36,546 nt of DNA from positions 1 to 36,546 of the forward strand of contig JACVJF010000017.1 of the NCBI GenBank assembly GCA_015711855.1. The letters run 5' to 3'. Numbering within the stretch: the stretch's first letter is position 1; each line of letters begins with the position of its first letter. The translations under genes were made by a program, and so were the position numbers. The DNA is from Candidatus Solincola quzhuomuensis (GTDB lineage: Bacteria > Actinomycetota > Geothermincolia > Geothermincolales > RBG-13-55-18). The notes beneath the pieces are model-generated. The model had not been told where the DNA came from, did not search any database, and saw nothing but the letters and a program-made list of their open reading frames with translations. Of this stretch, positions 15,316 to 35,800 are shown in pieces.

Positions 15316-16659
15316 ATGAGCAAATGGAAGGACCTTTATCGCTTAAAGCTGACCACCCCGGAGGAAGCGGTAAGGGGCATAAAATCGGGGGACAAGGTCT
15401 TTTGCAGTGGAGCCTCCTCCACCCCGGTAGCACTCCTGGAAGCCCTGGTGAAGAGGGCCATGGCCGGCGAGATCGAGAACGTGCAGATGGGTAGCTTCAT
15501 CATCCTGGCCCCCATCTTCGACGTGCTCAAGCCCGAGTACCAGAAGAACATCCTCATCGACAACTACTACACATCACCGCTGGACAGATCCGCCATGGCC
15601 TCGGGTCTGATGACCCATACCCCATACCATTTTCATCAAGTAACCCGCCTGGCGGTCGAGGAGGTAGGTTACCGCAAACTCATGGTCCAGACGGGACCCA
15701 TGGACAAGAACGGCTACCTCAATCTGGGACTTTTTGCCAACTACCTGGACGTGGTGGACCGCCTGGAGGAGATCTACGTGGAGGTCAACGAGAAGCAGCC
15801 CGTGGTGCACGGTCCCAACTGGCTGCACATCAGCCAGGTCACCAAGGTGGTGGAGAATCACCATCCCGTCTTCGCCCTACCGCCGGAGCCGGTCAGCGAC
15901 GTGGACAGGGCCATCGCCGAGAACATCGTCGACCTCATCGAGGACGGCGCCACCGTGCAGCTGGGTATAGGGGGGACCACCAACGCCATCGGCGAACTCC
16001 TGCTGGAAAAGAAACACCTGGGGTGCCACACGGAGATGATGGGCGACGCCTACATGAAGCTCTTCCAGGCCGGTGCCCTGGACAACACCCACAAGAACTT
16101 CCACCGCTACCAGATGCTCTGTTACTTCGGGCTGGGCTCCCAGGAGCTCTACGAATGGATGGACGACAACCCCATGATCTACCTCTCGCCCATCAGTTAC
16201 AACAACGACCCCTACGTCATCGGGAAGAACGACAACCTCATCTCCATAAACACCACCTTGGAGATAGACATCACCGGCCAGTGCGCCTCGGAATCCTTCG
16301 GCCCCATCCAGTACACGGCCACCGGTGGCCAAGTTGACTTCACGCGTGGGGCCTGGCTCAGCCGGGGGGGTAAGTCCTTCATCGTCACCCCCTCCACCGT
16401 CGTCGACAAGGAAACCGGAGAGACGGTATCCAAGATCGTGCCCCAGCTGCGGCCGGGAGCGGTGGTGACCCTCACCCGCACCGACGTCATGTACGTGGCC
16501 ACGGAGTACGGCTGCGTGAACCTGAAGGGCAAAAACCTCCGAGAGCGCGCTCGCGCCCTGATCAGCGTAGCCCATCCCGATTTCCGAGGCGAACTGCGCC
16601 GTTACGCGCGGGAGGTCAAGTACTTCATCCTCCCGGAGCACGAGGCCGGCTTGGACTGA
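15316..16659 (+). CDS. acetyl-CoA hydrolase / 4-hydroxybutyrate CoA-transferase family protein
   Basis: 447 aa, close to the length of 4-hydroxybutyrate and butyrate:acetate CoA-transferases. LGIGGTTNAIGELLL (216-230) precedes GCHTEMMGD, where Glu240 aligns with the catalytic glutamate that forms the glutamyl-CoA thioester in this family (Glu238 in the Clostridium aminobutyricum enzyme). Further on are the ATGGQVDF motif and a C-terminal TDVMYVATEYG block typical of the family. It would move CoA between a carboxylate and acetyl-CoA without ATP cost, supplying activated acids. The ATG has AGGAGGT 6 nt upstream. Which acids it uses is unknown. Nearby acyl-CoA ligases and the benzoyl-CoA-reductase-like pair fit a CoA-thioester catabolic setting. 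Confidence 0.9.
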   Translation: MSKWKDLYRLKLTTPEEAVRGIKSGDKVFCSGASSTPVALLEALVKRAMAGEIENVQMGSFIILAPIFDVLKPEYQKNILIDNYYTSPLDRSAMASGLMTHTPYHFHQVTRLAVEEVGYRKLMVQTGPMDKNGYLNLGLFANYLDVVDRLEEIYVEVNEKQPVVHGPNWLHISQVTKVVENHHPVFALPPEPVSDVDRAIAENIVDLIEDGATVQLGIGGTTNAIGELLLEKKHLGCHTEMMGDAYMKLFQAGALDNTHKNFHRYQMLCYFGLGSQELYEWMDDNPMIYLSPISYNNDPYVIGKNDNLISINTTLEIDITGQCASESFGPIQYTATGGQVDFTRGAWLSRGGKSFIVTPSTVVDKETGETVSKIVPQLRPGAVVTLTRTDVMYVATEYGCVNLKGKNLRERARALISVAHPDFRGELRRYAREVKYFILPEHEAGLD

Positions 16660-19472: not shown

Positions 19473-20729
19473 TCAGACGCCGACGCTTTCGCCCAGCAGG
19501 TTCTCGACGAAATCCCGGATGCGCGTCTCCACCTCGGAGCGGTTGTACCAGCGCGAGTCGGTGTGGTCGGCCTCGATGATCAGGGTCGGCTTTCCGGTGC
19601 GGCGGGTGAACTCCTTGGCCAGGTCGTATTGCCCAAGGGAATAGGGCTTGCAACTCCGGTTGGAGTGCATGATCATGCCGTCCACATCGAAACGTCGGGC
19701 CAGCGACTCTATCTTTTCCGCCATACGTTCCAGATTTATGTTGAGATAGACCTCCGTGTAAATGGCGGCCATGCTGGCCAGGGGATCCTCCACATCCACT
19801 CCCTCGAAAGTCCAGGCGCTGGTGTAGGTGTCGGCCACCAAGCAGGCCTCCAGCTCGGTGAAGAGCCTGCCCAGGTTGCGCATCTCGTACCATACCGGGA
19901 TGTTGTCCCACAACAAGCGATACCTCTCCGAGGGAAGGATGCCTATCCCCCGTTCGATGCGTTCTCTCATCTCCTTGAGGAGTCCTTGGTAGAAGTCGAC
20001 CACCTCCTGGGTTCCGCGCAGGGTGACTATGGGGGCCATGAGGATGAAGGCGTCGAAGCAGGTCATGGGCGCCGGCTTGTGCTCGTTGCAGGCCAGCACC
20101 TGGGCCCAAAGGCTCGAGGCGTAGAGCGACTTGGCGGCCACGTCCACAAAACGAGCCTCGTCGTACTCTTTTCCGGTAATTCTTTCCAAAAAGGATATGT
20201 ACTCCTCCATCTGGCGGACGGAATAATCTTTGTGATGGAAAGACAGCTCACCTCGCACGAACGGGGTGTCGAAGATGAAAAGGGGCACCTCGAAGAAGCG
20301 CGAGAGTTCCTCGTACCACTTGAAAACCGTGTTGCAGATGTTGTTGCAGCACACGAGGAAGGTGGGCCGCGGTAGGCCGCCTATGGGTCCACCTTTAGTG
20401 ACGGCGCTGCCTATGTCCCCGCGGGCATAGGAACAAAGGTCGCGTGAGAAACCGCGTGATTCGGCCACTTCGCAGAGTTCCACGTTCATGTGAGCGGCCC
20501 CGCACATGGCGCCGTGGTTTTCCGGGTACACGGGTATGACGTCGAAGGCGATGAGGGGTTCCACGGGCCCACCGCTGGTGATCCAGGCGATATGCCTGTC
20601 CGTTCCCTCCGCCGCCTTGGCCTCCAGGTAATATTTGGTCATCAGTTCGCGCATGGCCCCGCCGGACTTGATGCGCCGTCTTTCCTTGTCCTCCTTTTCC
20701 CTGCCGGAAAGATCCGCATCGGTACTCAT
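19473..20729 (-). CDS. benzoyl-CoA reductase / 2-hydroxyacyl-CoA dehydratase superfamily subunit (BcrB/HgdA-like)
   Basis: 418 aa from the ATG at 20729, which has AAGGAGGT 6 nt upstream; a TTG two codons earlier sits on top of that site. The protein belongs to the HGD-D superfamily: SGGPVEPLIAFDVIPVYPENHGA near residues 52-74, cysteines at 99 and 127/128/132 (VCCNNIC), and a C-terminal HSNRSCKPYS with Cys360. Those cysteines are candidate ligands of the [4Fe-4S] cluster that supports low-potential single-electron reduction. It follows the second subunit gene after 30 nt, so they should form a heterodimer. Sizes (418 and 377 aa) fit BcrB/BcrC as well as HgdA/HgdB types. The ATPase activator these enzymes normally need is not in the window. 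Confidence 0.85.
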   Translation of the reverse strand: MSTDADLSGREKEDKERRRIKSGGAMRELMTKYYLEAKAAEGTDRHIAWITSGGPVEPLIAFDVIPVYPENHGAMCGAAHMNVELCEVAESRGFSRDLCSYARGDIGSAVTKGGPIGGLPRPTFLVCCNNICNTVFKWYEELSRFFEVPLFIFDTPFVRGELSFHHKDYSVRQMEEYISFLERITGKEYDEARFVDVAAKSLYASSLWAQVLACNEHKPAPMTCFDAFILMAPIVTLRGTQEVVDFYQGLLKEMRERIERGIGILPSERYRLLWDNIPVWYEMRNLGRLFTELEACLVADTYTSAWTFEGVDVEDPLASMAAIYTEVYLNINLERMAEKIESLARRFDVDGMIMHSNRSCKPYSLGQYDLAKEFTRRTGKPTLIIEADHTDSRWYNRSEVETRIRDFVENLLGESVGV

Positions 20730-20759
20730 ACTCAAACCTCCTTCGCCCCTCGTACCGGG

Positions 20760-21893
20760 TCAAACGCCGCGGATGGTCTCTATGAAAGCCTGAAGGCGGG
20801 TCCTCAACTGACCGCGGGAGAAGGACTGCAGTTCGCTCTCCAGGACCAGCGAGGGTACTCCCAGTTCCTCCTGCAGCCGCTTCCTCAGGTAGGGGATGTC
20901 GAAGAGGTGAGGCTCGCAGAAGGACTGCAGGTAAAAGACGACTCCGCGCGCGCCGCAAGCTTGCACCTGCCAAAGCAGTCGTTCCGCTCGGTCCTCCAGG
21001 CACTGATGTTTGGCGGGGCAGTTCACCCTTTCCCACATGCGCTTGGCCAGAGCATCCTCGGGAGCTACGGTCTCGTCCGCAAAAGCGTCGAAATAGCGAT
21101 GTCCGCAACACAAGTCGTCGTCCACCACGTCGGCGCCCAGCTCCAGGAGGAGCTCGAAAAGGTCCGGGGTGGTGCATATGCTACCGCTGACCAGGAGGGG
21201 AAGACGATCGACTTCCTCGGCCTCGACGGACTCCAAGTTCTCGGCTATACGTTGAAGGATCTCGTTATGCGCCTGGCGCGGCATCCAGAACCCGACTACC
21301 AGGCAAGCCGTGGCTGAAAGACCGTCTATCACATGGGGTTTCTCACGTCGCAGTCGGTATAGCCTGTCCGCTAGGCGCCGGTTGCGGTTGTAGACTCGGA
21401 TGCTCTCCCGAAGCGCCTCGTCCGAAATCTCATGTCGGACGAAGGCCTCCACCTGCTCCCGGAACCGGTGAACCTCCTCCACCAGGAAAGGGAGGGATAT
21501 CTCCTCGCCCATGCGTATGGGGAGCACCAGGTCCCCGTGAAAAGGGAACCCGGTGTTGCGCCGCCAGATGTCCGAAAGACGCATCATGGTGTCGCAGGTC
21601 TGCACGAAGACCGCCCCTTCCAGGCTTTCAAGCTCGCCGGCAAGGGCCATATCCAGGTCGGTGCGGGCCAGGGAACAGCAGTAGGCCTGCAGGTGGGCGT
21701 CGGCATGACCTATGGTTCGCGCTGCACCCATGAGGCGTACCGGCGTGAGCCCCGCAGCATGGAGTATCTCCTCCGGCGTGTAGGAACAGAAGAAAGCAAC
21801 CGGCCTTTCTCCTTGCTCCCGCAGACGCGACAGTTCCTTGTAGGGATCACGCCAGATCTCCAGACACTCGTCTATCATGGTCTGTGTTCCCAT
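20760..21893 (-). CDS. benzoyl-CoA reductase / 2-hydroxyacyl-CoA dehydratase superfamily subunit (BcrC/HgdB-like)
   Basis: 377 aa, first gene of the pair. The ATG has AAAGGAG 4 nt upstream. The pattern FFCSYTPEEILHAAGLTPVR at residues 35-54 is the classic entrance of this superfamily. Candidate cluster ligands are Cys72/Cys73 (YCCSLAR), Cys100 (QTCDTM) and Cys326 (QSFCEPHLFDIPYL). The C-terminal PSLVLESELQ matches the conserved 'P.L.lE.e' end. Together with the next gene it should form a heterodimer performing ATP-coupled low-potential electron chemistry on a CoA thioester, either dearomatisation of an aryl-CoA or dehydration of a 2-hydroxyacyl-CoA. The two options cannot be separated here. 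A promoter-like element lies at 21939-21947. Confidence 0.85.
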   Translation of the reverse strand: MGTQTMIDECLEIWRDPYKELSRLREQGERPVAFFCSYTPEEILHAAGLTPVRLMGAARTIGHADAHLQAYCCSLARTDLDMALAGELESLEGAVFVQTCDTMMRLSDIWRRNTGFPFHGDLVLPIRMGEEISLPFLVEEVHRFREQVEAFVRHEISDEALRESIRVYNRNRRLADRLYRLRREKPHVIDGLSATACLVVGFWMPRQAHNEILQRIAENLESVEAEEVDRLPLLVSGSICTTPDLFELLLELGADVVDDDLCCGHRYFDAFADETVAPEDALAKRMWERVNCPAKHQCLEDRAERLLWQVQACGARGVVFYLQSFCEPHLFDIPYLRKRLQEELGVPSLVLESELQSFSRGQLRTRLQAFIETIRGV

Positions 21894-21938
21894 GGCGCTC
21901 CTTTCCTCAAGACGGCGGAGGACACAAACGCTTAATCC

Positions 21939-21947
21939 ATTTTATCA
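21939..21947 (-). promoter_or_regulatory. candidate extended -10 promoter for the dehydratase-like pair
   Basis: On the minus strand TGA-TAAAAT forms an extended -10 (hexamer at 21944-21939), about 45 nt before the ATG at 21893. No good -35 is seen, which an extended -10 can tolerate. The transcript could equally continue from the ferredoxin gene 164 nt upstream. Confidence 0.3.
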
Positions 21948-22057
21948 ACAATGCTCGAAACATCGGGCGGGGATCTCCACGGCATCCGCCTACCTCCCGA
22001 GGATCCGGCCAGGGATTCGATGCCCAACGGCGTAGGCGGCGCCGGAAAACCTGGACG

Positions 22058-22669
22058 CTAAGAACGGCCCCTCCCCCTTTTTCCCCTGCCGGCGCCCTCG
22101 CCGGATGGAAATACCACTATGGCCGCATCGGGACAGGTGACGCAGGTGTTCTGGCAGGCGCCGCAACCGGTGCATTTCTCCTCGAGAACATGAGGCCTTC
22201 CCCGCGAGTCCGGCTCGATGGCCCCGTAGGAACATCGCTCCTGGCAGACCAGACAGTCCTTGCCTTCCGCCCAAGCGATACACTTCTCCCTGTTCACTCG
22301 CGCCGTCCCTATGCGCACCTCGTCATCGTCCGGTCGGCGAATGGCACCCACCGGACAGGCATGTGCACAGGCCCTGCCGCACAGCTCGAACTCGCATTTG
22401 GCTAGGGCGGGGTTGAACTTAGGCGTCCACAATTTCGCGGCCCCGTACTCCCTTCCAGCCGCTTCCAGGCAACCGGTCATGCAGGCGCGCACGCATTCCT
22501 GGCAGCGCAGGCAACGGGAGACGAAGCTCACCTCGTCTTGCGCCCCCGGAGGTCTGAGCAATGGCGAAGCATCCGACTCCTGCGGCCACAACCCATAGGC
22601 GAGTGCCGTGGCCGCTCCGGCCAGACCCCAGGCCAGAAATTCCCGTCGAGCCAGCCTCAGCCTTCGCAT
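22058..22669 (-). CDS. Tat-exported polyferredoxin, NapG/MauM-like
   Basis: 203 aa from the ATG at 22669, chosen because it starts with a twin-arginine signal (RRLRLARREFLAWGLAGAATALA) and has GGGGAGG about 10 nt upstream. An earlier frame start at 22792 would lie deep inside the preceding gene. The mature part has four ferredoxin-like cysteine groups: CLRCQECVRAC, CGRACAHACP, CLVCQERCSYG and CTGCGACQNTCVTCP. This indicates up to four [4Fe-4S] clusters, as in NapG. The start overlaps the end of the NapH-like gene by 13 nt, so translation is probably coupled. It should pass electrons on the outer face of the membrane in partnership with the NapH-like protein. The final electron acceptor is not evident. 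Confidence 0.82.
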   Translation of the reverse strand: MRRLRLARREFLAWGLAGAATALAYGLWPQESDASPLLRPPGAQDEVSFVSRCLRCQECVRACMTGCLEAAGREYGAAKLWTPKFNPALAKCEFELCGRACAHACPVGAIRRPDDDEVRIGTARVNREKCIAWAEGKDCLVCQERCSYGAIEPDSRGRPHVLEEKCTGCGACQNTCVTCPDAAIVVFPSGEGAGRGKRGRGRS

Positions 22670-23610
22670 CTCAGGTCGACCTCCCCCCTGCCCGCGCCTT
22701 CCGGCTTCCTCTTTTCCCTCCCGGACGCCGCAAGGGTCACCCCGAAGGAGCGCAGGAAAAGGGCTCCCTCGCAAGGACAAGAAGCCACGCATTCACCGCA
22801 TAGGGCGCAATCGGCAACGGCCAGACGCCCGGTTCGCCGGGAATCCGCCACCTCGTTGATCTCGAAGGGACAAGCCAGGGAGCACCTGCCGCAGTGGATG
22901 CAGCTCTCCTCGTTCTTCACCAGGGAGATCGGACTGGCGACCGCCGGAAGGCGGGATCCGACCATGCTCGAGAGGGAGAGACAAGCTCCCAAGGGGCACA
23001 TCTCCCGGCACCAGAAGCGCGGTCCCGCCACCACGGCCAAGGCGACGAGGCCGATGAGAAGAAAGGGTATTCCTCCGGAGAGCACGAAAACCACCGCCCG
23101 ATTGGCGATCACCAGAGGGTCATAAACCCAGGCCAGGTTGATCCCCGCCAGAGAGAGGATCAAAAAAAGCGCCAGAAAAGCGTATTTAGGCCTAATCCTC
23201 CGCTCCCCGGCCACAATCGTCCTCCCGGCCAAGCCCACGGGCCTCAGATCGGAGGGTTTCCCAACAGCTCTTCTGCGCGCCGAGGGCGTCCATTCCAGCA
23301 CTGTCCCCAGGGGGCATATCCAACCGCAGAAAAACCGCCCGCTGAAAACGGTTGCCAAAAGCAGCAACCAGGCAGGGAGTAGATAGGTCCAGAGGCCGCT
23401 CCAGGATACGGCCACGAAAGCCGCCAGGGGGTCGAAGCGAAGAAAGACGTTCTCGTTAACCCCTCCCGGAGGATAGGCTGCCGTCCACACCAGTATCACG
23501 AACAGGGACAGGAAAAGGGCCTGCACCACCCTCCTGACCCAGGAGATGGGATGACGGCTTCTTCTCGACTTACCTCGCTTTCTTTCCATACTGTTCCAGA
23601 ATCTTTCCAT
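22657..23610 (-). CDS. NapH-like membrane polyferredoxin
   Basis: 317 aa. Several transmembrane segments are visible (about 27-45, 62-90, 142-165, 177-200). Two cytoplasmic CxxxCP-type motifs, FFCGWICPLG and WCREMCPLGA, are the NapH/NosR/RdxA hallmark. Two C-terminal [4Fe-4S] groups follow, CIHCGRCSLACP and CALCGECVASCPC. NapH-type proteins take electrons from quinol or cytoplasmic donors and hand them to NapG-type ferredoxins. The next gene downstream encodes such a ferredoxin and overlaps this one. Here no nitrate reductase is present, so the module probably serves another reductase. The start is uncertain: ATGs at 23610 and 23589 both lack a clear ribosome site. The DUF362 gene ends 77 nt upstream on the same strand. 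Confidence 0.85.
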   Translation of the reverse strand: MERFWNSMERKRGKSRRSRHPISWVRRVVQALFLSLFVILVWTAAYPPGGVNENVFLRFDPLAAFVAVSWSGLWTYLLPAWLLLLATVFSGRFFCGWICPLGTVLEWTPSARRRAVGKPSDLRPVGLAGRTIVAGERRIRPKYAFLALFLILSLAGINLAWVYDPLVIANRAVVFVLSGGIPFLLIGLVALAVVAGPRFWCREMCPLGACLSLSSMVGSRLPAVASPISLVKNEESCIHCGRCSLACPFEINEVADSRRTGRLAVADCALCGECVASCPCEGALFLRSFGVTLAASGREKRKPEGAGRGEVDLRCEG

Positions 23611-23687
23611 GGGGGGCAGGTTTTGTGAAGACGCCGCGCTTTAAACGAATGCCACGTCACACGCGTATGCCGGTCTCTGCATCCCCC

Positions 23688-24683
23688 TCAGACCTCAACC
23701 TCCCTCACCCCAAGGGAACGGAAATCTGTGGTCCCCACCCCCAATTCCTCACCGTGAACCAAATACCTTATATCCCTCGGCGACCTCCCGAAAAAGGAGC
23801 AGGCGTAAGCGTCGACGGCTACCGGATCCTTGCCGATGATTATCTCCCCCGGCCGGCTCACGGTACCCGGACCGCCGGGCCCGTGGTCCAAAAGAACGCT
23901 AAGGGCATCCATTATCACCAGCGAGGGCCTGATGACCGTGTTCAGCTCGGCGATGGCCCTATGCAGGTCGATCTGGTGCATCTTACCCATATTCTGGGTA
24001 CACCCTATGAGGTTCTTCATGGATAGGCTCAATCCGGCACCGCTGTGGTGCTTGGCCTTGGGCATGTTCACCACGATCTCCGCCCGGAAGATCTCCTCCA
24101 GGATGCCTACCTCGCCCAGGGCTTTTCCTCCGGGCACTCGCACCATCCGGGATACCCCCGGTCTCCCTACGGGATAGACGGCCAATTCGGCCCCCGCGTT
24201 CTTGGCGGCAGGTCCTATACCGTTCTTCTCCAGCGTAGGATCCACGAGATCCTGCAGGATGTGGTCGAAGACGACGACCTCCTTCGCCCCCGATTCCAGG
24301 AAAAGGCGCACCACCTCCGCCACCAGGCCGGGATGGGTGGTGGTGGCGTGTTCCGGGGGTCGGGCAAAGGCGGCGTTCACTTTGATGAGGACGTTCTTCC
24401 CCTCGGGCCGTAGGGTTGCTAGGCCTCCCCATTCCTCCAGTCCCCTGCGGACCATGTTTTCGGGTTTTTCTCCTCGCACCACCACCAGGCCGGGAAAGGC
24501 CTCTCCGCCATGACGAGGGGCGGGGAGCTCGCCGGGCGAAGCCTCCGGCCCCTGCTCCACGGGACAAGTCCCGGTTTCCTTGCCTCCACAACCGGACAAG
24601 GTCAGGCCAAGGTAGATACCACCCAGACCCAGGGCGGCTCTTCCCATCTTTTCCAGAAAATACCTTCTATCCACCGTCTTCAT
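23688..24683 (-). CDS. DUF362 protein with twin-arginine lipoprotein signal
   Basis: 331 aa from the ATG at 24683, preceded by GAGGGA 5 nt away; an upstream in-frame start gives 14 extra polar residues. The N-terminus shows DRRYFLEKMGRAALGL, a Tat-like pair Arg6-Arg7, then a hydrophobic run and lipobox LSGC with Cys32. The main domain has the DUF362 pattern: VLIKVNAAFARPP, VVVFDHILQD, NMPKAKHHSGAGLSLSMKNLIGC, and a late GKDPVAVDAYACSFFG. DUF362 proteins often accompany Fe-S electron carriers. Unlike fused forms, this one has no C-terminal ferredoxin; the two genes that follow supply those. Expected to be anchored outside the membrane. Function unknown. Confidence 0.82.
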   Translation of the reverse strand: MKTVDRRYFLEKMGRAALGLGGIYLGLTLSGCGGKETGTCPVEQGPEASPGELPAPRHGGEAFPGLVVVRGEKPENMVRRGLEEWGGLATLRPEGKNVLIKVNAAFARPPEHATTTHPGLVAEVVRLFLESGAKEVVVFDHILQDLVDPTLEKNGIGPAAKNAGAELAVYPVGRPGVSRMVRVPGGKALGEVGILEEIFRAEIVVNMPKAKHHSGAGLSLSMKNLIGCTQNMGKMHQIDLHRAIAELNTVIRPSLVIMDALSVLLDHGPGGPGTVSRPGEIIIGKDPVAVDAYACSFFGRSPRDIRYLVHGEELGVGTTDFRSLGVREVEV

Positions 24684-25825: not shown

Positions 25826-26329
25826 ATGAGGTTCCTCGTAGCTTACCTGTCTCAGACGGGAAACACCCGGAAGGTGGCAGAAGCCATCTACGAAGTCCTG
25901 GAGGGTGAAAAGGAGATCATGCCCCTCTCCGAGGTGGAGAGCCTCGAGGGCTACGACCTGGCCTTCATCGGTTTCCCCATTCACGCCTCGAACCCGGCGG
26001 CGGAGGCCAAAGCTTTTCTGGAAGAGAAGGGAAGGGGGAAGAAGGTCGCCCTCTTCGTCACCCACGCCGCCCCCGAGGACCACGAGCTCGTCTCCGGCTT
26101 TCTGGAAAAATGCAAGGCGGCCGTATCCCACGCCGATCTGGTGGGGATGTTCGACTGCCAGGGGGAGCTGTCGCAGGCGGTGATCGACATCCTGGCCAAG
26201 AGCGACAACCCCAAGTACCGGGAATTCGCCGCATACGGTCCCCAGACCAAGGGCCAGCCGGACGACTCACGGCTGGAAAAAGCGCGCGTATTCGCCCGGG
26301 ACGTGGTGAATAAACTGAAGGGGACTTAA
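25826..26329 (+). CDS. flavodoxin-family protein
   Basis: 167 aa. The N-terminal strand-loop MRFLVAYLSQTGNTRKVAEAIYE contains the FMN-phosphate loop SQTGNT at residues 9-14. The Rossmann-like pattern continues with YDLAFIGFPIHA and KKVALFVTHAAP, as in flavodoxins. The length is that of short-chain flavodoxins with a C-terminal helix. It would shuttle one or two electrons in the cytoplasm and is a natural electron carrier for the flavoprotein cluster that follows or for the reductase-like pair. The ATG has AGGGAGGT about 6 nt upstream. Its stop overlaps by 4 nt the stop of the convergent FAD oxidoreductase gene. Confidence 0.85.
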   Translation: MRFLVAYLSQTGNTRKVAEAIYEVLEGEKEIMPLSEVESLEGYDLAFIGFPIHASNPAAEAKAFLEEKGRGKKVALFVTHAAPEDHELVSGFLEKCKAAVSHADLVGMFDCQGELSQAVIDILAKSDNPKYREFAAYGPQTKGQPDDSRLEKARVFARDVVNKLKGT

Positions 26330-27405
26330 ATCCTCCCGTAACCGGTTATGTTAATCTTGAAGGCCTGGCGCAGGAGGAGCGGACCGAAGACGGGCATGAA
26401 GCGCATGGCCAGCCTTCCGGGGTACTTGACGACGAGTTCCCGGGGGCTGTGATCCATAATCCGCTTGGCGATAAGCACCGGATAGAAGGTGAGGTTGAGG
26501 CGTCGAAATTCGTCGTAAGCGGCGGCGGGATCGGTCACGGCATCGGCGGCGATCTTCCCGGAGAGAAAGGCTCCGTGCATGCCGAAGAACAACACGGGAT
26601 CCATCATCCCGGACACCGTTCCCGCCAGGATCATGTCTCCCTGGAACAGCCTGGGGTTGGTAAGACGCCTCACGGGTGCCGCCCCGCCTTCCAGGACCTG
26701 GAATCTCTTGAAGGGATAGCCGTCCTCCAGAGTGGCCTGCTCGGCGAACTTTTCCACCTCCCACTTGGCCACCGGCCGGTAGCGGTTGAAGATCAGGGCG
26801 AAAGCGATGCCGTTGACTGAGCAGGTGAAGGCGTAATCGGGCGTGTAATCGTCGAAGTAGACGGTCACCCGGGGTTCCATCCAAGGAACCCGGCACTTGG
26901 CGAAATACCCGTGCAGGAGCTGGTAGGGGACTCCTACCGCTTCGAAGCCGTCCACGTGCAGTCCCGTGGCCATTATGGAGTTCCGGGGGAGCCGGTTCAC
27001 CTGGCGATCGGCGATCACTGGTTGATCGAACTCGAAGCGCACCCCCTCCTCCACCGCCAGGCGGTAGAGGTAGTGATCCATGGAAGTCCTGCGAGGACCT
27101 CTCTCGATCATCCAGGCTTGGACGTTGGGTGGGAATTTGATCCGATAACGCTTTCCCCAGACGGATATCGTGCCTTCCTTCAGGGGAACCATCCCCGGCA
27201 TCAGGTCGATGCCCGTGTACCTGCACATGGCCTCGGCGTCCATGGGCGTCCCGTGCGGGGACGGGTTGTAGATAGCTAACCCCCCCACCCGCTTGCCCTT
27301 CTCCAGCACGATGACCTCACGACCACGTCTTGCCAGATTGATGGCCGCCGTGAGTCCGGCCAGACCCGCTCCCACCACGTATACGGGTCCTTCCTTCCCA
27401 GCCAT
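26326..27405 (-). CDS. FAD-dependent oxidoreductase, paralogue A
   Basis: 359 aa from the ATG at 27405, with GCGAGGT 6 nt upstream; a TTG at 27435 is overlapped by its own purine stretch. The GAGLAG dinucleotide loop is at residues 12-17 and the FAD-ribose acidic end at VLEKGKRVGG. The family-specific ERGPRRTSMD is at 100-109, ATGL at 145-148, a tyrosine-rich YFDDYTPDYAF follows, and the C-terminal AGTVSG..DP..FFG.HGAFLSGKIAA begins at about 260. The same blocks occur in the three paralogues of this window. The overall plan is like GR2-type flavoproteins (geranylgeranyl reductase/FixC, phytoene desaturase), but no exact family is recognised. Substrate unknown; a hydrophobic substrate is a guess. 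Confidence 0.82.
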   Translation of the reverse strand: MAGKEGPVYVVGAGLAGLTAAINLARRGREVIVLEKGKRVGGLAIYNPSPHGTPMDAEAMCRYTGIDLMPGMVPLKEGTISVWGKRYRIKFPPNVQAWMIERGPRRTSMDHYLYRLAVEEGVRFEFDQPVIADRQVNRLPRNSIMATGLHVDGFEAVGVPYQLLHGYFAKCRVPWMEPRVTVYFDDYTPDYAFTCSVNGIAFALIFNRYRPVAKWEVEKFAEQATLEDGYPFKRFQVLEGGAAPVRRLTNPRLFQGDMILAGTVSGMMDPVLFFGMHGAFLSGKIAADAVTDPAAAYDEFRRLNLTFYPVLIAKRIMDHSPRELVVKYPGRLAMRFMPVFGPLLLRQAFKINITGYGRI

Positions 27406-27463
27406 GACCAACCTCGCTTTCTCCCGATCCGCCAACCCTCGCTGATCAGTTCTTTGTCCCGCT

Positions 27464-28597
27464 TCAGATGCCGATGTATTTGGAATATCTATCCATATGG
27501 AAAAGAAGCAGATAGCCGGGTATCATCCGCTGCATGCTCGCGCCCTGTAGGCGACCCAGTAATTCAAACCTGGACACGAACCCCATCGCCGTCGAGACCA
27601 GGACCCTACGCAGCGGCTCGGGCATGTAGTTGATGGCCACTCGTCGGAAAAACCACATGGGGTTGAAACTGCGGTTGCAGAGATCGAACATCTCCTGGGC
27701 CAGCGCCTTGTCCTCCAGGGCTATGGCGGCTATCTTTCCCGAGATCATGGCCCCGTGGCAGCCGAAATAGGTCCCCGGGTCCTGGGCGCCCGCCAGCGTC
27801 CCGGCCAGGATCTTGCCCCCGGCGAAAAGCCTCGGCTGGCTCGGATAGCGGGAGGCGAAATAACCTCTCTCCATATGCCAGGTCTTGAACTCCACACCTT
27901 CCGTCTCCCTTATCTGCCTCTCCCACCTCTCGCGTTCCCTCTCTCCCACCGGCCTGCGGGCGAAGAAGAGACCGGCCACTACGCCGTTGGCGGAGGGTAG
28001 GTAACAGTAGTCGCGCGTGTAATGATCAAAGTAAACCGCGCAACGCCGCGCCTCCGACCTCCGTCCCCACGGGCGATATATCCCACTCATCACGTAGCCG
28101 TAAGCCGTCTCGTAGGGTATGCGGAGGGCATCGAAGGCTTCCCGGTACGGTCCGGTGGCCACGATGGTGTCGGGAGGATATTGGGCCAGATCCTTCTGGC
28201 AGGTTATGGGATTCCCCCACTCGAAAGTTACTCCCATTTCCCGGGCCACCTCGTAAAGATAGCGGTCGATCGCCGTGCGGCGGGGCCCGCGCTCCACGTT
28301 GTGCAGGGCGGAGAACGCGGGGTTGAGTTTGAACAGTCTGCCGAAGGAATAGACGTGAAAGTTCTCACACGGACCCACCTGCGGTTCCCCTATGGGCACC
28401 CCGAGGAACCGGGACATCAGATCGGGGTGGAAGGGCGTGGAATCCACGAAGGGATGGGCCTTGGGCATTCCCCCCACCCGGTTGTACCGGTCGACGCAGT
28501 GGACATCGTACCCCAGCTTGCGCGCGGTAATGGCCGCGCAGAGTCCTGCCAGACCGGCTCCCACGATGGTGACTTTCTTTCCGGGCACCTTCCTCAC
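27464..28597 (-). CDS. FAD-dependent oxidoreductase, paralogue B
   Basis: 377 aa, GTG start at 28597 with AGAGG 5 nt upstream; a second GTG three codons later is possible. GAGLAG is at residues 13-18, ERGPRRTAID at 102-111, IVATGP at 145-150, YFDHYTRDYCY follows, and the C-terminal block AGTLAGAQDP with FGCHGAMISGKIAA is present. It is the longest paralogue: it carries ~15 extra residues and a Cys-rich N-terminal half (Cys20, 34, 77, 133). It lacks the final Leu of the ATGL motif. It lies 58 nt upstream of paralogue A and 63 nt downstream of paralogue C, consistent with one transcript. Confidence 0.82.
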   Translation of the reverse strand: MRKVPGKKVTIVGAGLAGLCAAITARKLGYDVHCVDRYNRVGGMPKAHPFVDSTPFHPDLMSRFLGVPIGEPQVGPCENFHVYSFGRLFKLNPAFSALHNVERGPRRTAIDRYLYEVAREMGVTFEWGNPITCQKDLAQYPPDTIVATGPYREAFDALRIPYETAYGYVMSGIYRPWGRRSEARRCAVYFDHYTRDYCYLPSANGVVAGLFFARRPVGERERERWERQIRETEGVEFKTWHMERGYFASRYPSQPRLFAGGKILAGTLAGAQDPGTYFGCHGAMISGKIAAIALEDKALAQEMFDLCNRSFNPMWFFRRVAINYMPEPLRRVLVSTAMGFVSRFELLGRLQGASMQRMIPGYLLLFHMDRYSKYIGI

Positions 28598-28660
28598 CTC
28601 AGCCTCTGAGTATATTCACGCCGGTCCCACCCCCCGCCTCTCTCCGGGCGCCCGCCGGGT

Positions 28661-29719
28661 TCATATCCCGCCGAAACCGGGTATGCCCCGGAGGGACATG
28701 TTCACCAAGGGCTGCAGCACTTTCGGCTCCCTCACGTATACGCTAAGGGCCAAATTAAGCCCCGCCTTGCGCACGAGGTGCGGCTGGTGTACGAAGAGCC
28801 TCTTGAGAACCCACGATCGGCGATAGAAGGCGGTGAGCTTTCGAAAAATTCGCCAGGCCCTTTCCTTGTCCTCCACGGCCATTGCCGCTATCCTGCCCGA
28901 GGCCAGAGACCCCTGCACGCCGAAGAGGAACAAGGGGTCCTGCAGGCCGGCCAGCGTCCCGGCCAAAATCTTGTCGCCGGAGAAGAGGCAAGGGGCGTCG
29001 ATGCTCTTGGTGGCCACCACTCCGTAATGGGGCTCCCATTCCCCGAACTCCATACCCTCCCGGCGCAAAAGCGAAGAGAGCTCTTCGCATACCGCTGAAC
29101 TCCGAGGCCGCGTGTCGAAGGCCAGCGCGAAGGACACCCCGTGAAGGTTCGCGCAGTAATGATAATTGCGCGTAAAACGGTCGAAAAAACCGATTATGCG
29201 CGGCGGTCCCTCGTGTCTGGTCCTGCACACGAACCCGAAGACCTCCTGGAAAGGACGCCTCAGAGCCAAAAAGGGCTCCGCTTCCAGGCCGGTGGCGATG
29301 ATGCTCCCGGCCGGAAGGCGGGCGAAATCCTCCTGGGAATCCAGAGCCATCCCGAATCGGAAATCCACCCCGGCATCTACAGCCAACTGGTAGAGGTAAT
29401 GGTCCAGGGAGGTGGAGCGGCTCCCTCGCTCCACGGAATGCAGCTGCATGTACCTTCCGGGGAAAGCGTGCCTCTTCCCGTACGCGTAGATGACGAACTC
29501 CTTGGTGGGAACAACGTACGGATAGGGGAGCTCCACTCCTATGAACCTCCCCAGCCGGTCCGGGTCCATGGGAGTGACGTCTATCGCAGGACGTATGCGG
29601 GGATCCCCTCCAACCCTGTCCCTCTTTTCCAGCACCGTGACCTTGTGGCCGGCCCGTACCAGGTTGATGGCGGCCACCAACCCGGCCAATCCCGCTCCCA
29701 CAACGGTGATCTCAGCCAT
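28661..29719 (-). CDS. FAD-dependent oxidoreductase, paralogue C
   Basis: 352 aa from the ATG at 29719, where the GxGxxG domain begins (MAEITVVGAGLAGL). The frame stays open far upstream, to 30850, but that part is antisense-frame sequence inside the flavin oxidase gene and has no homology to the family, so it is excluded. Family blocks are ERGSRSTSLD at 97-106, IIATGLE, FFDRFTRNYHY, AGTLAGLQDP and FGVQGSLASGRIAAMAVEDK. A GAGGTGG lies about 9 nt before the start. This copy differs most in the ERGPR block (ERGSR) and has Gln in place of the conserved His before the SGKIAA helix, suggesting a different substrate or a changed site. Confidence 0.82.
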   Translation of the reverse strand: MAEITVVGAGLAGLVAAINLVRAGHKVTVLEKRDRVGGDPRIRPAIDVTPMDPDRLGRFIGVELPYPYVVPTKEFVIYAYGKRHAFPGRYMQLHSVERGSRSTSLDHYLYQLAVDAGVDFRFGMALDSQEDFARLPAGSIIATGLEAEPFLALRRPFQEVFGFVCRTRHEGPPRIIGFFDRFTRNYHYCANLHGVSFALAFDTRPRSSAVCEELSSLLRREGMEFGEWEPHYGVVATKSIDAPCLFSGDKILAGTLAGLQDPLFLFGVQGSLASGRIAAMAVEDKERAWRIFRKLTAFYRRSWVLKRLFVHQPHLVRKAGLNLALSVYVREPKVLQPLVNMSLRGIPGFGGI

Positions 29720-29756
29720 GGCCCCATCCACCTCGAGGTATCCGGAACGGCACCCC

Positions 29757-29843
29757 AGGCCGCCCGCCGGACCTTTACTTTCCCCGGCTCGGCACGAGTT
29801 CCACCGGAGACGCCCGTCGAGCGGAGAGGTCGCCCGCCGGACC
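29757..29843. repeat. 17-bp direct repeat upstream of paralogue C
   Basis: The sequence aggccgcccgccggacc (29757-29773) recurs at 29827-29843 with one mismatch, 70 nt apart, in the 293-nt gap between the flavin oxidase and paralogue C genes. It might be a regulatory repeat or a trace of local duplication. Nothing else is visible in this gap. Confidence 0.4.
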
Positions 29844-30012: not shown

Positions 30013-31656
30013 TCAAAGGGTCAACTTCTTGCACAAGCCGGTTTGATAATCCCATCTCCTGGCGGAGACGTTGTTGGGATCCACGGCCATCTTGAAAGCC
30101 GTGAAGGTGTCCGTGAAGGTGGTGCTGTTGGGCATCAGAAGCGGCATGAGGTCGTCCAGTTTGGGCATGCCTTCCGGTAAGGGTAAGGGCATCCCCTTCA
30201 TCAGGGGAATGGCCCCGCAGGCCAGCACCAATCCATGGCCCAGGATCCCCGTGAACATGGCCCTCATGTAGGTCATGAACATGCGCATGTTGTCGTCTTT
30301 GTCGCCCTGGTTGGTATAGACATCGTATTCCATATAGGCGGAACGACCCATATGGTAGGGCTGGAGATAGGTGGAAGCATCGTCCGGCGGCAAATTGTCG
30401 TCGGTGTGGCCGGCTTGGTCGCTGGTGGCCACCCGCATGCTGCGCTCCGCTTCCAGGAAGTTGTCCAGGTGGCCGATAAGGGCCCCGATGAGGAAGGAGC
30501 CACGGACTCTCATCACCCGGACGGTCACGTTGAAGTATTTCTGCCAGCGGTCCAGGTTCACGCTGCGCAGATCGGCGGTGAGGTCCTCCACGGCTTCCGG
30601 GGGCAGGAAATCCCAATCCGGGTCGATCTTTAGGATCTCCCTCTCGATGATCTCCGCCTTCAACCTTGCCTCCTCCGGGGTGGAGCCGGCGAAGATGGTG
30701 AAGAGGTTGTTGCGGGGAAAGGTACCGGCGATGGCGCTGGCCTGGGCGTTGGTGGCGCCCACGAATATCCCGAAGAAAGAGTTCTGCATATGGGCGAGCT
30801 CGAGGGTAAGGTTCTCGTTGGCCACCTTGTACAACACGTCGATGACGCACTTCAGATCGTCCTTCTCATATGCTGGGAATATCTGGTATATATGTTCCGG
30901 TTCCGGATAGAGCCGCAGGGTCATCTCCGTGACCGTACCCAGGGTTCCGAAGGCGTAACGGAAGAGAGAGGCCATGTCCGGTCCCGGTCCGGGGACGTGG
31001 GCCTTGACCGCTCCGTAGGCGGCGGGACCCGTCTTCAAGATGGAACCGTCGGGCAGGACCATGGTCATGTCGATGATGTTGTCGATGCCGAATCCATACT
31101 TGGAGGCCAAGGTATTGATATTGCAGAAGGCGTGATTGGATATAACCCCGGCGGTGGCCGCCGTGGAGGGGTTGAGCACGCGGCACTTGACCTTCTGGGC
31201 CTCCACCTGAGCAGCCAAGTAGTTCACCCCCGGCTGGATGACCATGTACATGTTCTCCCCGTCCACTTCCAGGATCTTGTCCATGCGCCGGAGGTCCATG
31301 ATGATGCCCCCGTAAAGGGGGATGTGGAGGGCCATGGTGGTGAGGCCGGTGCCCATGGGTATGACGTCCACCCGGCACTCATTGGCGATACGGTAGACCT
31401 CCGCCACCTCCTCCGTCGTCTCGGGCATGACCACCAGGTGGGGATATTGGGCGGGAAGGGGGGCCTGGTCGCGCGAGTATCCGATGAGGATCACCGGGTC
31501 GTCGGTGACCCATTCCTCTCCCAGGGCTTCCTCGAGCATCTCCTTGGCCCTAGCCAGATCCTCGGGGCGATTGTGGAGCGGTTCGGCCTCGTGCTGGAAG
31601 ATTATCCCGGATATCCTCCTCTCCTTTATGTCCTTGGCTATGTCCCTTATCCACAT
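30013..31656 (-). CDS. FAD-binding oxidoreductase, VAO/GlcD-like
   Basis: 547 aa. The ATG has AAGGAGGT 8 nt upstream. The N-terminal FAD_binding_4 (PCMH-type) domain is complete: HLVVMPETTEEVAEVYRIA, the pyrophosphate loop PMGTGL at 100-105, GGIIMDLRRMDKILEVD, and the later AATAGVISNHAFCNINTLASKYGFG block. The C-terminal half fits the FAD-linked oxidase C domain of vanillyl-alcohol-oxidase, p-cresol methylhydroxylase and glycolate/lactate dehydrogenase enzymes. These oxidise alpha-hydroxy acids or benzylic/allylic alcohol positions. No His or Tyr for covalent flavin can be assigned with confidence. It follows the Fe-S gene after 4 nt, so it is the last part of a three-gene oxidase-like unit. 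Confidence 0.86.
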   Translation of the reverse strand: MWIRDIAKDIKERRISGIIFQHEAEPLHNRPEDLARAKEMLEEALGEEWVTDDPVILIGYSRDQAPLPAQYPHLVVMPETTEEVAEVYRIANECRVDVIPMGTGLTTMALHIPLYGGIIMDLRRMDKILEVDGENMYMVIQPGVNYLAAQVEAQKVKCRVLNPSTAATAGVISNHAFCNINTLASKYGFGIDNIIDMTMVLPDGSILKTGPAAYGAVKAHVPGPGPDMASLFRYAFGTLGTVTEMTLRLYPEPEHIYQIFPAYEKDDLKCVIDVLYKVANENLTLELAHMQNSFFGIFVGATNAQASAIAGTFPRNNLFTIFAGSTPEEARLKAEIIEREILKIDPDWDFLPPEAVEDLTADLRSVNLDRWQKYFNVTVRVMRVRGSFLIGALIGHLDNFLEAERSMRVATSDQAGHTDDNLPPDDASTYLQPYHMGRSAYMEYDVYTNQGDKDDNMRMFMTYMRAMFTGILGHGLVLACGAIPLMKGMPLPLPEGMPKLDDLMPLLMPNSTTFTDTFTAFKMAVDPNNVSARRWDYQTGLCKKLTL

Positions 31657-31660
31657 CTCC

Positions 31661-32881
31661 CTACACCTCCTTCCCCAGCGAGGCCAGCAGCGGTTCGGCC
31701 AGGTCGTAGACCTTCACGGAACTACCAGCGGCCTCCACCGCCTTGCGGAACATCTGCAGGCAGTAAGGACAGCTGGTCACCACCGCTTCCGCTCCCACCC
31801 ACTCCGCCTCGTACAAGCGTTCCTTGGCCGTCCACAGCGCGTAGTCGGGGAAAGCGTAGGGTACCCCACCGCCCCCGCCGCAGCAAAGGGAGTTGAAAGC
31901 GGCCCGGGGGAATTCCAGGAGCTCGAGACCGGGTACGGCCCGGAGCACGTTGCGCGGCGGGTCGTAGATATCGAAACGCCTGCCCAGCTTGCATGGGTCG
32001 TGATACACGGCTCGGAGGGGCACCTCTTTCACCGGCTTGATCTTGTCCTTGCGTATAAGGCGGTCGAAGACCTCGCTCACGTGCCTCACCCTGATGCTCG
32101 GGTCGAGCTCCCGCGTGTATTCCTCCTTGAAGACCCAGGCGGCATGGGCGTCGGGGGTGACGATGGTCTTGACGCCCAGGGAGTTGAAGGTCTCGATGTT
32201 CTCAAAGGCATAGGTCTCGAAGAAATCCCGGTCGCCCAAAAGTAGCATGAGGGCGCCGTCGCTCTTCTCCGCGGCGCCCAGGATGCCCACATCCAAACCC
32301 GCCTCCAGAAGCACCTGGGCAGCGGCGCGCACGGCGGGGAACAGGTCGGGGTCCGTGGAGTAGGCATCGCCGGCGAAGAAGAGGACCTCCGCCTTTTCCT
32401 CGGGAAAGCGTTTCAGCCCCAATCCTTCCGCCCAATCGCCGCGCTTAGCGGCTTCCACGCCGAAGGGGTTGTCGTTCTTCTCCATGCTCTCCCGCAGAGG
32501 TTCATGCTCGGGCATTGGCCCCCAGCCCTCGCGAACCGCCTTCTCCCGCATGAGCTCGAAGACCCGGGTGGGATGCAGCTGCTTCACCTCGTAGCACTGT
32601 TCTTGGCAGGAAGAGCAGAGCATGCAGGTGTAGAGGACATGCCGGAGGGAGTCGCTGGGCTCTATCTCGTGGATGTGCAGGCCACGGGCGATCTCCATCT
32701 TGCCCGATGCGTAGTAGGCATCCCAGCGGAAGCGGGTCCCGGATGGGCAGTTCCTCCAGAATCGGGAATCCGCGCAGAACTGAACGTGCACCGCTTGGCA
32801 AATCTTGCATTTGGTGCAGATGAAGTAATCCTGTTGCAGCTCGTGCAGGACCTCCCTCGGAGCGGTGATGCGCTTCTTCAT
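31661..32881 (-). CDS. CCG-domain Fe-S protein, GlcF/HdrD-like
   Basis: 406 aa. The N-terminal half has two cysteine groups: an unusual CTKCKICQAVHVQFC...NCP (Cys22, 25, 28, 36, 45) and CMLCSSCQEQC (Cys86, 89, 92, 96), which should bind [4Fe-4S] clusters. The C-terminal half has a CCG domain: DPCKLG, SLCCGGGGG and SCPYC, as in heterodisulfide reductase HdrB/D and glycolate oxidase GlcF. It would pass electrons between the flavin subunits and a membrane or soluble carrier. The ATG follows the stop of the upstream gene by 3 nt, with GGAGGGGG nearby, so it is translationally coupled. No transmembrane segment is visible, so the complex is probably soluble or peripheral. Confidence 0.86.
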   Translation of the reverse strand: MKKRITAPREVLHELQQDYFICTKCKICQAVHVQFCADSRFWRNCPSGTRFRWDAYYASGKMEIARGLHIHEIEPSDSLRHVLYTCMLCSSCQEQCYEVKQLHPTRVFELMREKAVREGWGPMPEHEPLRESMEKNDNPFGVEAAKRGDWAEGLGLKRFPEEKAEVLFFAGDAYSTDPDLFPAVRAAAQVLLEAGLDVGILGAAEKSDGALMLLLGDRDFFETYAFENIETFNSLGVKTIVTPDAHAAWVFKEEYTRELDPSIRVRHVSEVFDRLIRKDKIKPVKEVPLRAVYHDPCKLGRRFDIYDPPRNVLRAVPGLELLEFPRAAFNSLCCGGGGGVPYAFPDYALWTAKERLYEAEWVGAEAVVTSCPYCLQMFRKAVEAAGSSVKVYDLAEPLLASLGKEV

Positions 32882-34741: not shown

Positions 34742-35800
34742 ATGAAGGAGATCACCATAGTGGGGGCGGGGCTCTCCGGACTGACCGCCTCCATACTCTT
34801 GGCCCGCAGGGGATATAGGGTGGTGGTGCTGGAACGAGAGGAAAGGGTGGGAGGTTCCCCCCTCTATCATCCTTCTTGCCAGGGCAGCCCGCTGCGGTTG
34901 AAAGCGATGCTTAACTACCTGGGAATTGACATCTCCCCGGGAATCGAACCCATCCGGGAGATGAGGGAAATCGCGGGCGGGAGGGTCATGACTTTGGACC
35001 CCGGACTGATCCACGCCTTTTTCTTCGAGCGCGGTCCGCGGCCAACCAGCTTGGACAGCCACCTCTTCAAGTTGGCGAGGGAAGCGGGCGTGGAATTCCG
35101 TTTTAATCAGCCGGTAATCTCCATGGAGGACATGGCCGGGTTGCCCGCGGGCAGCATCGTGGCCACAGGCTTGCACTTCGAGGGATTCGATGCCCTGGGG
35201 ATCCCTTATCTCACCTCGCACCACCTCACCTACAAGGCCACCTGCGATCCCGACCTCAACTTCGTGCACATGTACCACGACACCTATACTTCCGACTACG
35301 GTTACGTGGCCGCCTTCCGGGGCATCCTCTACGTCCACCTCTTCAACCGCCGCAGGCCGATCTCGCAGGAGAACGGTAACCGGTTCGCCGAACAAGTGGC
35401 GCACTTCGAGGGTATAGACATCCCGCGCTGGAACCGATTCTCCTTTCCCCTGCCCGCCGCTTCCGTCCGCACTCCCCGTCTGTTCGCCTCCAACAAGATC
35501 CTTGCAGGGACCTTGGCCGGGGCAATGGACCCCTTCGCTTTTTTCGGTCTGCACGGCGGCTTGGTATCGGGGAAAATAGCGGCCATGGCCGTGGAGGACA
35601 AAGAGCGGGCCTGGAGGGAGTTCCGCAGGTGCGTGAGCCCGTACTATGCGGCATACTTCGCGGCGCGCCTAAAGGAGTTCATCCCGGGTTCCTTGACCTT
35701 AATCGGCTATCGGTCCGTATTTCATCGTTTCGAGAGGAAAAGGTTGGCGCAAAAGATCCTGGTGGAGCATATGCCGGGGTATAGGAATCTGTTTCCTTGA
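34742..35800 (+). CDS. FAD-dependent oxidoreductase, paralogue D
   Basis: 352 aa. The ATG has GGGAGGT 5 nt upstream. GAGLSG is at residues 8-13, VLEREERVGGSP follows, ERGPRPTSLD is at 96-105, SIVATGL near 142-148, YHDTYTSDYGY in the middle, and AGTLAGAMDPFAFFGLHGGLVSGKIAAMAVEDKERAW in the C-terminal third. It is clearly paralogous to A, B and C, but lies on the opposite strand across the shared regulatory region. It is followed after 62 nt by the phytoene-desaturase-like gene. No signal peptide. The reaction is unknown; in related GR2-type flavoproteins it would be reduction, oxidation or hydroxylation of a hydrophobic substrate. Confidence 0.83.
   Translation: MKEITIVGAGLSGLTASILLARRGYRVVVLEREERVGGSPLYHPSCQGSPLRLKAMLNYLGIDISPGIEPIREMREIAGGRVMTLDPGLIHAFFFERGPRPTSLDSHLFKLAREAGVEFRFNQPVISMEDMAGLPAGSIVATGLHFEGFDALGIPYLTSHHLTYKATCDPDLNFVHMYHDTYTSDYGYVAAFRGILYVHLFNRRRPISQENGNRFAEQVAHFEGIDIPRWNRFSFPLPAASVRTPRLFASNKILAGTLAGAMDPFAFFGLHGGLVSGKIAAMAVEDKERAWREFRRCVSPYYAAYFAARLKEFIPGSLTLIGYRSVFHRFERKRLAQKILVEHMPGYRNLFP

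Follow-up and report, generated by a model that had tools for sequence, protein, structure and literature searches.

Described BCR/HAD systems and the locus under study

Benzoyl-CoA reductases and 2-hydroxyacyl-CoA dehydratases belong to one enzyme family (BCR/HAD), and the described systems closest to the one reported here are (R)-2-hydroxyisocaproyl-CoA dehydratase (HadBC with its activator HadI; 3O3N, 4EHT), the BZD-type class I benzoyl-CoA reductase (BzdNO with BzdPQ; 8S02) and the double-cubane cluster protein system DCCP/DCCP-R (6ENO, 7YYL). Class I benzoyl-CoA reductases, which reduce benzoyl-CoA with stoichiometric ATP, have two different activator subunits, whereas the dehydratases (HADs) have a single activator gene. 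In BzdN, six cysteines hold an [8Fe-9S] double-cubane cluster, with a shell of Arg and His residues near the distal sub-cluster (PMC11971306); HadC has a reduced cysteine set ([4Fe-5S]). In the published scheme for the evolution of the family, the reductases retain the double-cubane cluster and the dehydratases lose it (PMC11971306). Here, we analyse a pair of HGD-D genes of Candidatus Solincola quzhuomuensis, encoding a catalytic (alpha) and an electron-transfer (beta) subunit, that lies beside genes for a DUF362 protein and for NapH-like and NapG-like proteins. The window, that is, the whole stretch of DNA analysed, is a complete contig of 36546 bp (JACVJF010000017.1; G000:C16 in our numbering) from a genome of 2.69 Mb in 187 contigs, 96% complete.

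The five genes are on the minus strand, at 19473-24683, in the order DUF362, NapH-like, NapG-like, beta and alpha, with the following assignments:

19473-20729, minus strand: HGD-D alpha, HadB-like catalytic subunit (Pfam, NCBIfam, predicted model)
20760-21893, minus strand: HGD-D beta, electron-transfer subunit (Pfam, comparison with the BzdN ligands)
22058-22669, minus strand: NapG/MauM-like polyferredoxin with the twin-arginine signal LARREFLAWG (Pfam, NCBIfam)
22657-23610, minus strand: NapH/MauN-like membrane ferredoxin protein (TIGR02163, E=4.5e-23, under the cut-off)
23688-24683, minus strand: DUF362 protein with a DRRYFLEK twin-arginine motif and a lipobox-like Cys (LSGC), predicted exported lipoprotein

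The open reading frames and the Pfam matches (HGD-D, PF06050, E=1.3e-75 and 8.9e-82; DUF362, E=6.1e-47; Fer4 families for the NapH-like and NapG-like proteins) agree with an earlier note on this DNA, which had described a two-subunit HGD-D pair downstream of DUF362, NapH-like and twin-arginine translocation (Tat)-type polyferredoxin genes on the same strand. As no activator ATPase was seen in the window, the note had offered two options, an activator encoded elsewhere or a lineage that couples the pair to a membrane-linked electron supply. We favour, with a probability of about 75%, two neighbouring yet separate units: a cytoplasmic BCR/HAD pair served by an activator encoded in trans, and a DUF362-NapH-NapG unit that is no more than its neighbour. 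What is new is that the pair falls in a subfamily of BCR/HAD enzymes that is large and uncharacterised and that combines its subunits in an unusual way.

A widespread subfamily with a HadB-like alpha and a BzdN-like beta subunit

A search with alpha among species genomes returned 439 candidate loci. The best 80 of these were from Desulfobacteraceae, Syntrophales, Spirochaetota, Chloroflexota, Bacillota and Actinomycetota, and 74 of them have beta upstream of alpha on the same strand, the two subunits being encoded adjacent in relatives as in the window. Candidatus Solincola and Candidatus Geothermincola (Actinomycetota) are among the nearest named relatives. The top NCBIfam matches of the pair were HadB and HadC, although both stayed far under the curated cut-offs (297 vs. 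750 and 187 vs. 700), and the equivalogs of BcrB/BcrC and BzdN/BzdO were not reached either (172.6 vs. 486.55, 132 vs. 448.6, 159.8 vs. 453.8 and 158.6 vs. 421.15). In a tree of the pair with solved references, the reference rows were on very long branches, so this tree is trusted for the ortholog clade alone.

Alpha is nearest to HadB, both by sequence and by predicted structure, as its predicted model matched HadB (3o3m_A) with a TM of 0.94 by target length, an rmsd of 1.8 A and 34% identity, compared to TM values of 0.81-0.83 at about 2.8 A for BzdO and MbdO (BzdO 0.82). In addition to the fold, alpha shares with HadB the three cluster cysteines and the glutamate, and the NRSCK and CCNNIC motifs are found in both systems. 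The predicted [4Fe-4S] ligands are C99, C132 and C360 and the equivalent of the catalytic Glu is E70 (numbering from MSTDAD), and all four were kept in 81/81 orthologs. His72, two residues past Glu70, is specific to the group (80/81). Position 135, which corresponds to His131 of BzdO, is a Val, as in HadB, and identity to the BzdNO catalytic subunit is 23%. His131 of BzdO was considered as a marker for reductases and dropped, since MbdO is a true reductase without this residue (Phe).

In contrast to HadC, beta carries the full double-cubane signature of six cysteines (C36, C73, C100, C262, C292 and C326), invariant in 75/75 orthologs, plus R53, R266, R289 and H329, of which R53 and R266 were kept in all 75, R289 in 68 and H329 in 73. 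BzdN resembles beta in the six [8Fe-9S] cysteines and in the shell (equivalents of R53, R267, R290 and H330). The comparison covered BzdN, DCCP, HadC and MbdN; HadC lacks two of the cysteines (C36 replaced by Pro, C262 by Ala) and MbdN three. DCCP shares the cysteine pattern of beta and a partner ATPase of the same family; it differs in that the pair is a two-gene heterodimer, with only the three-Cys set in alpha. From these residues, beta is predicted to hold an [8Fe-9S] double-cubane cluster.

Alpha being of the dehydratase type and beta of the reductase type, the pair mixes both kinds of subunit. As HADs lose the double cubane in the published scheme, its group would sit between reductases and dehydratases. 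What the double cubane is for could be tested naturally in such a large group, in which a catalytic subunit of the dehydratase type occurs with an intact double-cubane signature. A more specific proposal, which we regard as speculative and rather unlikely, is that the combination of a HAD-type catalytic subunit, a single-gene homodimeric activator and a BCR-type double-cubane subunit serves multi-electron chemistry on a non-aromatic acyl-CoA, in an enzyme intermediate between reductase and dehydratase.

The nature of the reaction is the point on which a different reading has most in its favour. Rather than a dehydratase, the pair could be a BZD-like enzyme that reduces an aromatic or an enoyl-CoA by two electrons, as suggested by the BzdN-type ligands and Arg/His shell of beta, which are missing in HadC, and by the acyl-CoA ligases that adjoin the pair at about a dozen loci. 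However, alpha is clearly HadB-like and has Val in place of the BzdO His131 (though MbdO has Phe), the scores against the BcrB, BzdO and BzdN models are far under the cut-off, and each locus with an activator has a single activator gene, as in HADs and unlike the BcrAD/BzdPQ-type heterodimer. A reductase is a serious alternative that we hold tentatively, and dehydration of a 2-hydroxyacyl-CoA is rated slightly above reduction.

Activators are encoded elsewhere in the genome

None of the five PF01869 (BadF/BcrA-type) ATPases of the genome is in the 36546-bp window, where the earlier note had seen no activator either; all of them are on other contigs. Two are on C5 beside an HGD-D pair, one on C94 beside a DCCP and one on C12 beside an HGD-D gene, whereas the fifth, on C14, is an orphan single gene with no HGD-D partner nearby. 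The C14 protein matches MbdQ (E=7.7e-64), HadI (4eht, E=2.8e-61) and HgdC (1hux, E=2.1e-56) and has both cluster-Cys motifs. An activator just outside the window, which the note had allowed for, was not found, and relatives with the pair on contigs of 75-119 kb have no activator on that contig. Three further HGD-D pairs of the genome, on C5, C73 and C96, are of a very divergent type, and of these the C5 pair alone has adjoining activators (two).

Among orthologous pairs, an adjoining activator is common: it was present in 31/51 well-flanked loci, always on the same strand and usually within about 200 nt. At loci with an activator there was a single activator gene in 44/44 and never two, as with HadI and unlike class I benzoyl-CoA reductases, and both Cys motifs were present in 43/43 clustered pair-adjacent activators. 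The genome G015, from another family than that of our genome, shows all five genes in order and also encodes an activator away from them. In the tree this activator joins the pair-adjacent one of G040 (100/99), and the alpha subunits of G015 and G040 are sisters (100/100). As the activator probably acts in trans, the absence of a neighbouring one gives no ground for a new power source. Of the two options put forward at the outset, an activator encoded elsewhere is supported, and the question has an ordinary answer.

The C14 gene is the most likely cognate activator. In f1 and f3, the two closest families, 13/17 genomes have an activator of its type (67-84% conserved), which was found in these families alone; in them the pair has no adjoining activator. 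Alternatively, the activators of the BCR type on C5 or of the DCCP type on C94, which are present in most relatives, could serve the pair, and C5_act1 scores like C14 against the pair-adjacent activators (best 234 vs. 236 bits). Yet C5 adjoins its own HGD-D pair and C94 a DCCP, whereas C14 is partnerless and confined to f1 and f3, which makes service by C5 or C94 unlikely.

The enzyme would then work as follows. Beta and alpha would form a cytoplasmic BCR/HAD heterodimer; a single-gene ASKHA ATPase, probably homodimeric like HadI/HgdC and most likely the C14 product, would hydrolyse ATP and hand low-potential electrons to beta; beta may store them on its predicted double-cubane cluster, from which they would reach the [4Fe-4S] cluster of the HadB-like alpha, where an acyl-CoA would be converted by radical chemistry.

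Several observations weigh against this picture. The C14-type activator was not found in G002, G005, G012 and G017 of f1/f3. The activator tree does not place C14 with the pair-adjacent activators; two trees were made, with long-branch trouble, and the one-clade test (p-AU 0.136) neither shows nor rejects a single clade. Besides the own-family loci, 12 well-flanked loci have neither the module nor a nearby activator. A second activator-less pair (C163/C46) is retained alongside this one in the same genomes. Finally, every beta-type protein of the genome carries the six cysteines, so the double-cubane signature alone is not unique to the pair.

The second pair is split over two contigs (G000:C163:1739-3736 and G000:C46:1-585), its alpha ending with ...WEPMDPEDP on C163 and continuing with MDPEDP... 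on C46. It has no activator nearby and is conserved in f1, f2 and f3.

The DUF362-NapH-NapG module is separable from the pair

The three genes upstream of the pair form a tight unit. The start of the NapG-like gene overlaps the end of the NapH-like gene by 13 nt, and the gaps inside the triplet range from -13 to 288 nt, compared to 128-3673 nt between NapG and beta. Throughout, the NapG and NapH genes are abutting or fused, the fusion being found in families f4 and f5. In sister families (L229, L230 and L231), the fused NapH-NapG has 525-548 aa and DUF362 still precedes it; a phytoene-desaturase-like flavoprotein is encoded near the fusion at L229 and L230.

Module and pair are linked in 12/15 own-family genomes and in G015, two being cut by contig ends, so this gene order is not due to chance. 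Elsewhere in the order and class they are apart: in 12 genomes (G005, G009, G016, G017, G019-G022 and G024-G027) the triplet is separated from the pair and on a different contig, save in G019, where it is about 17 kb off on the opposite strand. The five genes stay together in one family and G015 but not beyond, and DUF362-NapH-NapG is a class-wide unit separable from the pair.

A twin-arginine motif is found near the start of most NapG-like orthologs, and in DUF362 (19 sequences) the RR and F are invariant and C32 nearly so. With these motifs and the lipobox-like Cys of DUF362, both proteins are predicted to be outside the cell membrane, whereas the pair is without an export signal and looks cytoplasmic. 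The module resembles NapGH in its NapH/NapG order, the Tat motif of the NapG-like protein and the overlapping genes. In contrast to NapGH, its scores are under the NapG and NapH cut-offs (80.6 vs. 269 and 74.5 vs. 234), a putatively exported DUF362 protein precedes it, and no nitrate reductase gene was seen among the annotated genes of the window. The module would thus be a membrane/extracytoplasmic electron-transfer unit, in this lineage a mere neighbour of the pair.

Under the other option of the earlier note, a membrane-linked electron supply, NapH/NapG together with DUF362 would replace the activator and draw the electrons for the pair from an ion gradient or from the quinone pool. The adjacency kept in one family and in G015 argues for it, as do the eight named module-bearing loci, none of which has an activator near the pair. 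Nevertheless, activators are present in these genomes, G015 even keeping the pair-adjacent type, the Tat signals would put the NapG-like and DUF362 proteins on the far side of the membrane from the pair, and the module is apart from the pair in 12 genomes. Conversely, in G040, G061 and G062 the pair has an adjoining activator and the genome has no close NapG ortholog; in Desulfosarcina alkanivorans, the genome of which is complete, about 160 kb lie between the pair and the closest NapG-like gene. Moreover, NapH-type proteins draw on quinol, the potential of which is far too high for such enzymes. The module as power source of the pair was rejected as highly improbable, given its separability, the Tat signals and the activators that these genomes have: nothing calls for a membrane supply, several lines of evidence contradict one, and no new way of powering such enzymes is indicated.

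A DUF362 protein can be found next to the pair in the absence of NapH too, since at four loci of sister Actinomycetota (L103, L104, L111 and L117) a protein of another DUF362 family (about 377 aa) is encoded directly downstream of alpha. A literature search on DUF362 together with NapH gave no match. A fold hint for DUF362 was obtained with Foldseek, a LarA-like protein (nickel-pincer racemase; E 2.2e-05, prob 1.00, TM only 0.47), but, given the Tat and lipobox signals, it would be an unusual relative of LarA in being exported.

Neighbouring genes and substrate hints

Another gene of the window may be associated with the pair:

15316-16659, plus strand: butyryl-CoA:acetate CoA-transferase-like protein (Pfam; putative association with the pair)

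A gene of this kind is near the pair in 9/12 same-family loci with the linked order, on the opposite strand and with a P-type ATPase in between; its product is a possible source of CoA esters for the pair. In Desulfobacterota, the pair is repeatedly flanked by genes for acyl-CoA ligases, for SDRs and for GlcD-like FAD oxidases together with CCG/Fer4 proteins. These neighbours are compatible with an acyl-CoA substrate, without identifying it. In Syntrophomonas wolfei, Swol_0412, annotated as a subunit of the BCR/HAD superfamily, was detected on butyrate (PMC3582634). A plasmalogen-synthase-like function, prompted by alkyl-DHAP-synthase-like neighbours, was considered and set aside, as no evidence for it was found for the pair.

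In the window itself, a GlcD-like gene (FAD_binding_4) and, after it, a CCG/Fer4_8 gene (30013-32881) look like the oxidoreductase genes that adjoin orthologous pairs in Desulfobacteraceae, and may be connected to the same pathway as the pair. Three consecutive paralogous FAD proteins are encoded at 26326-29800 on the minus strand and a fourth at 34742-35800 on the plus strand, all with a weak resemblance to geranylgeranyl-reductase/phytoene-desaturase.

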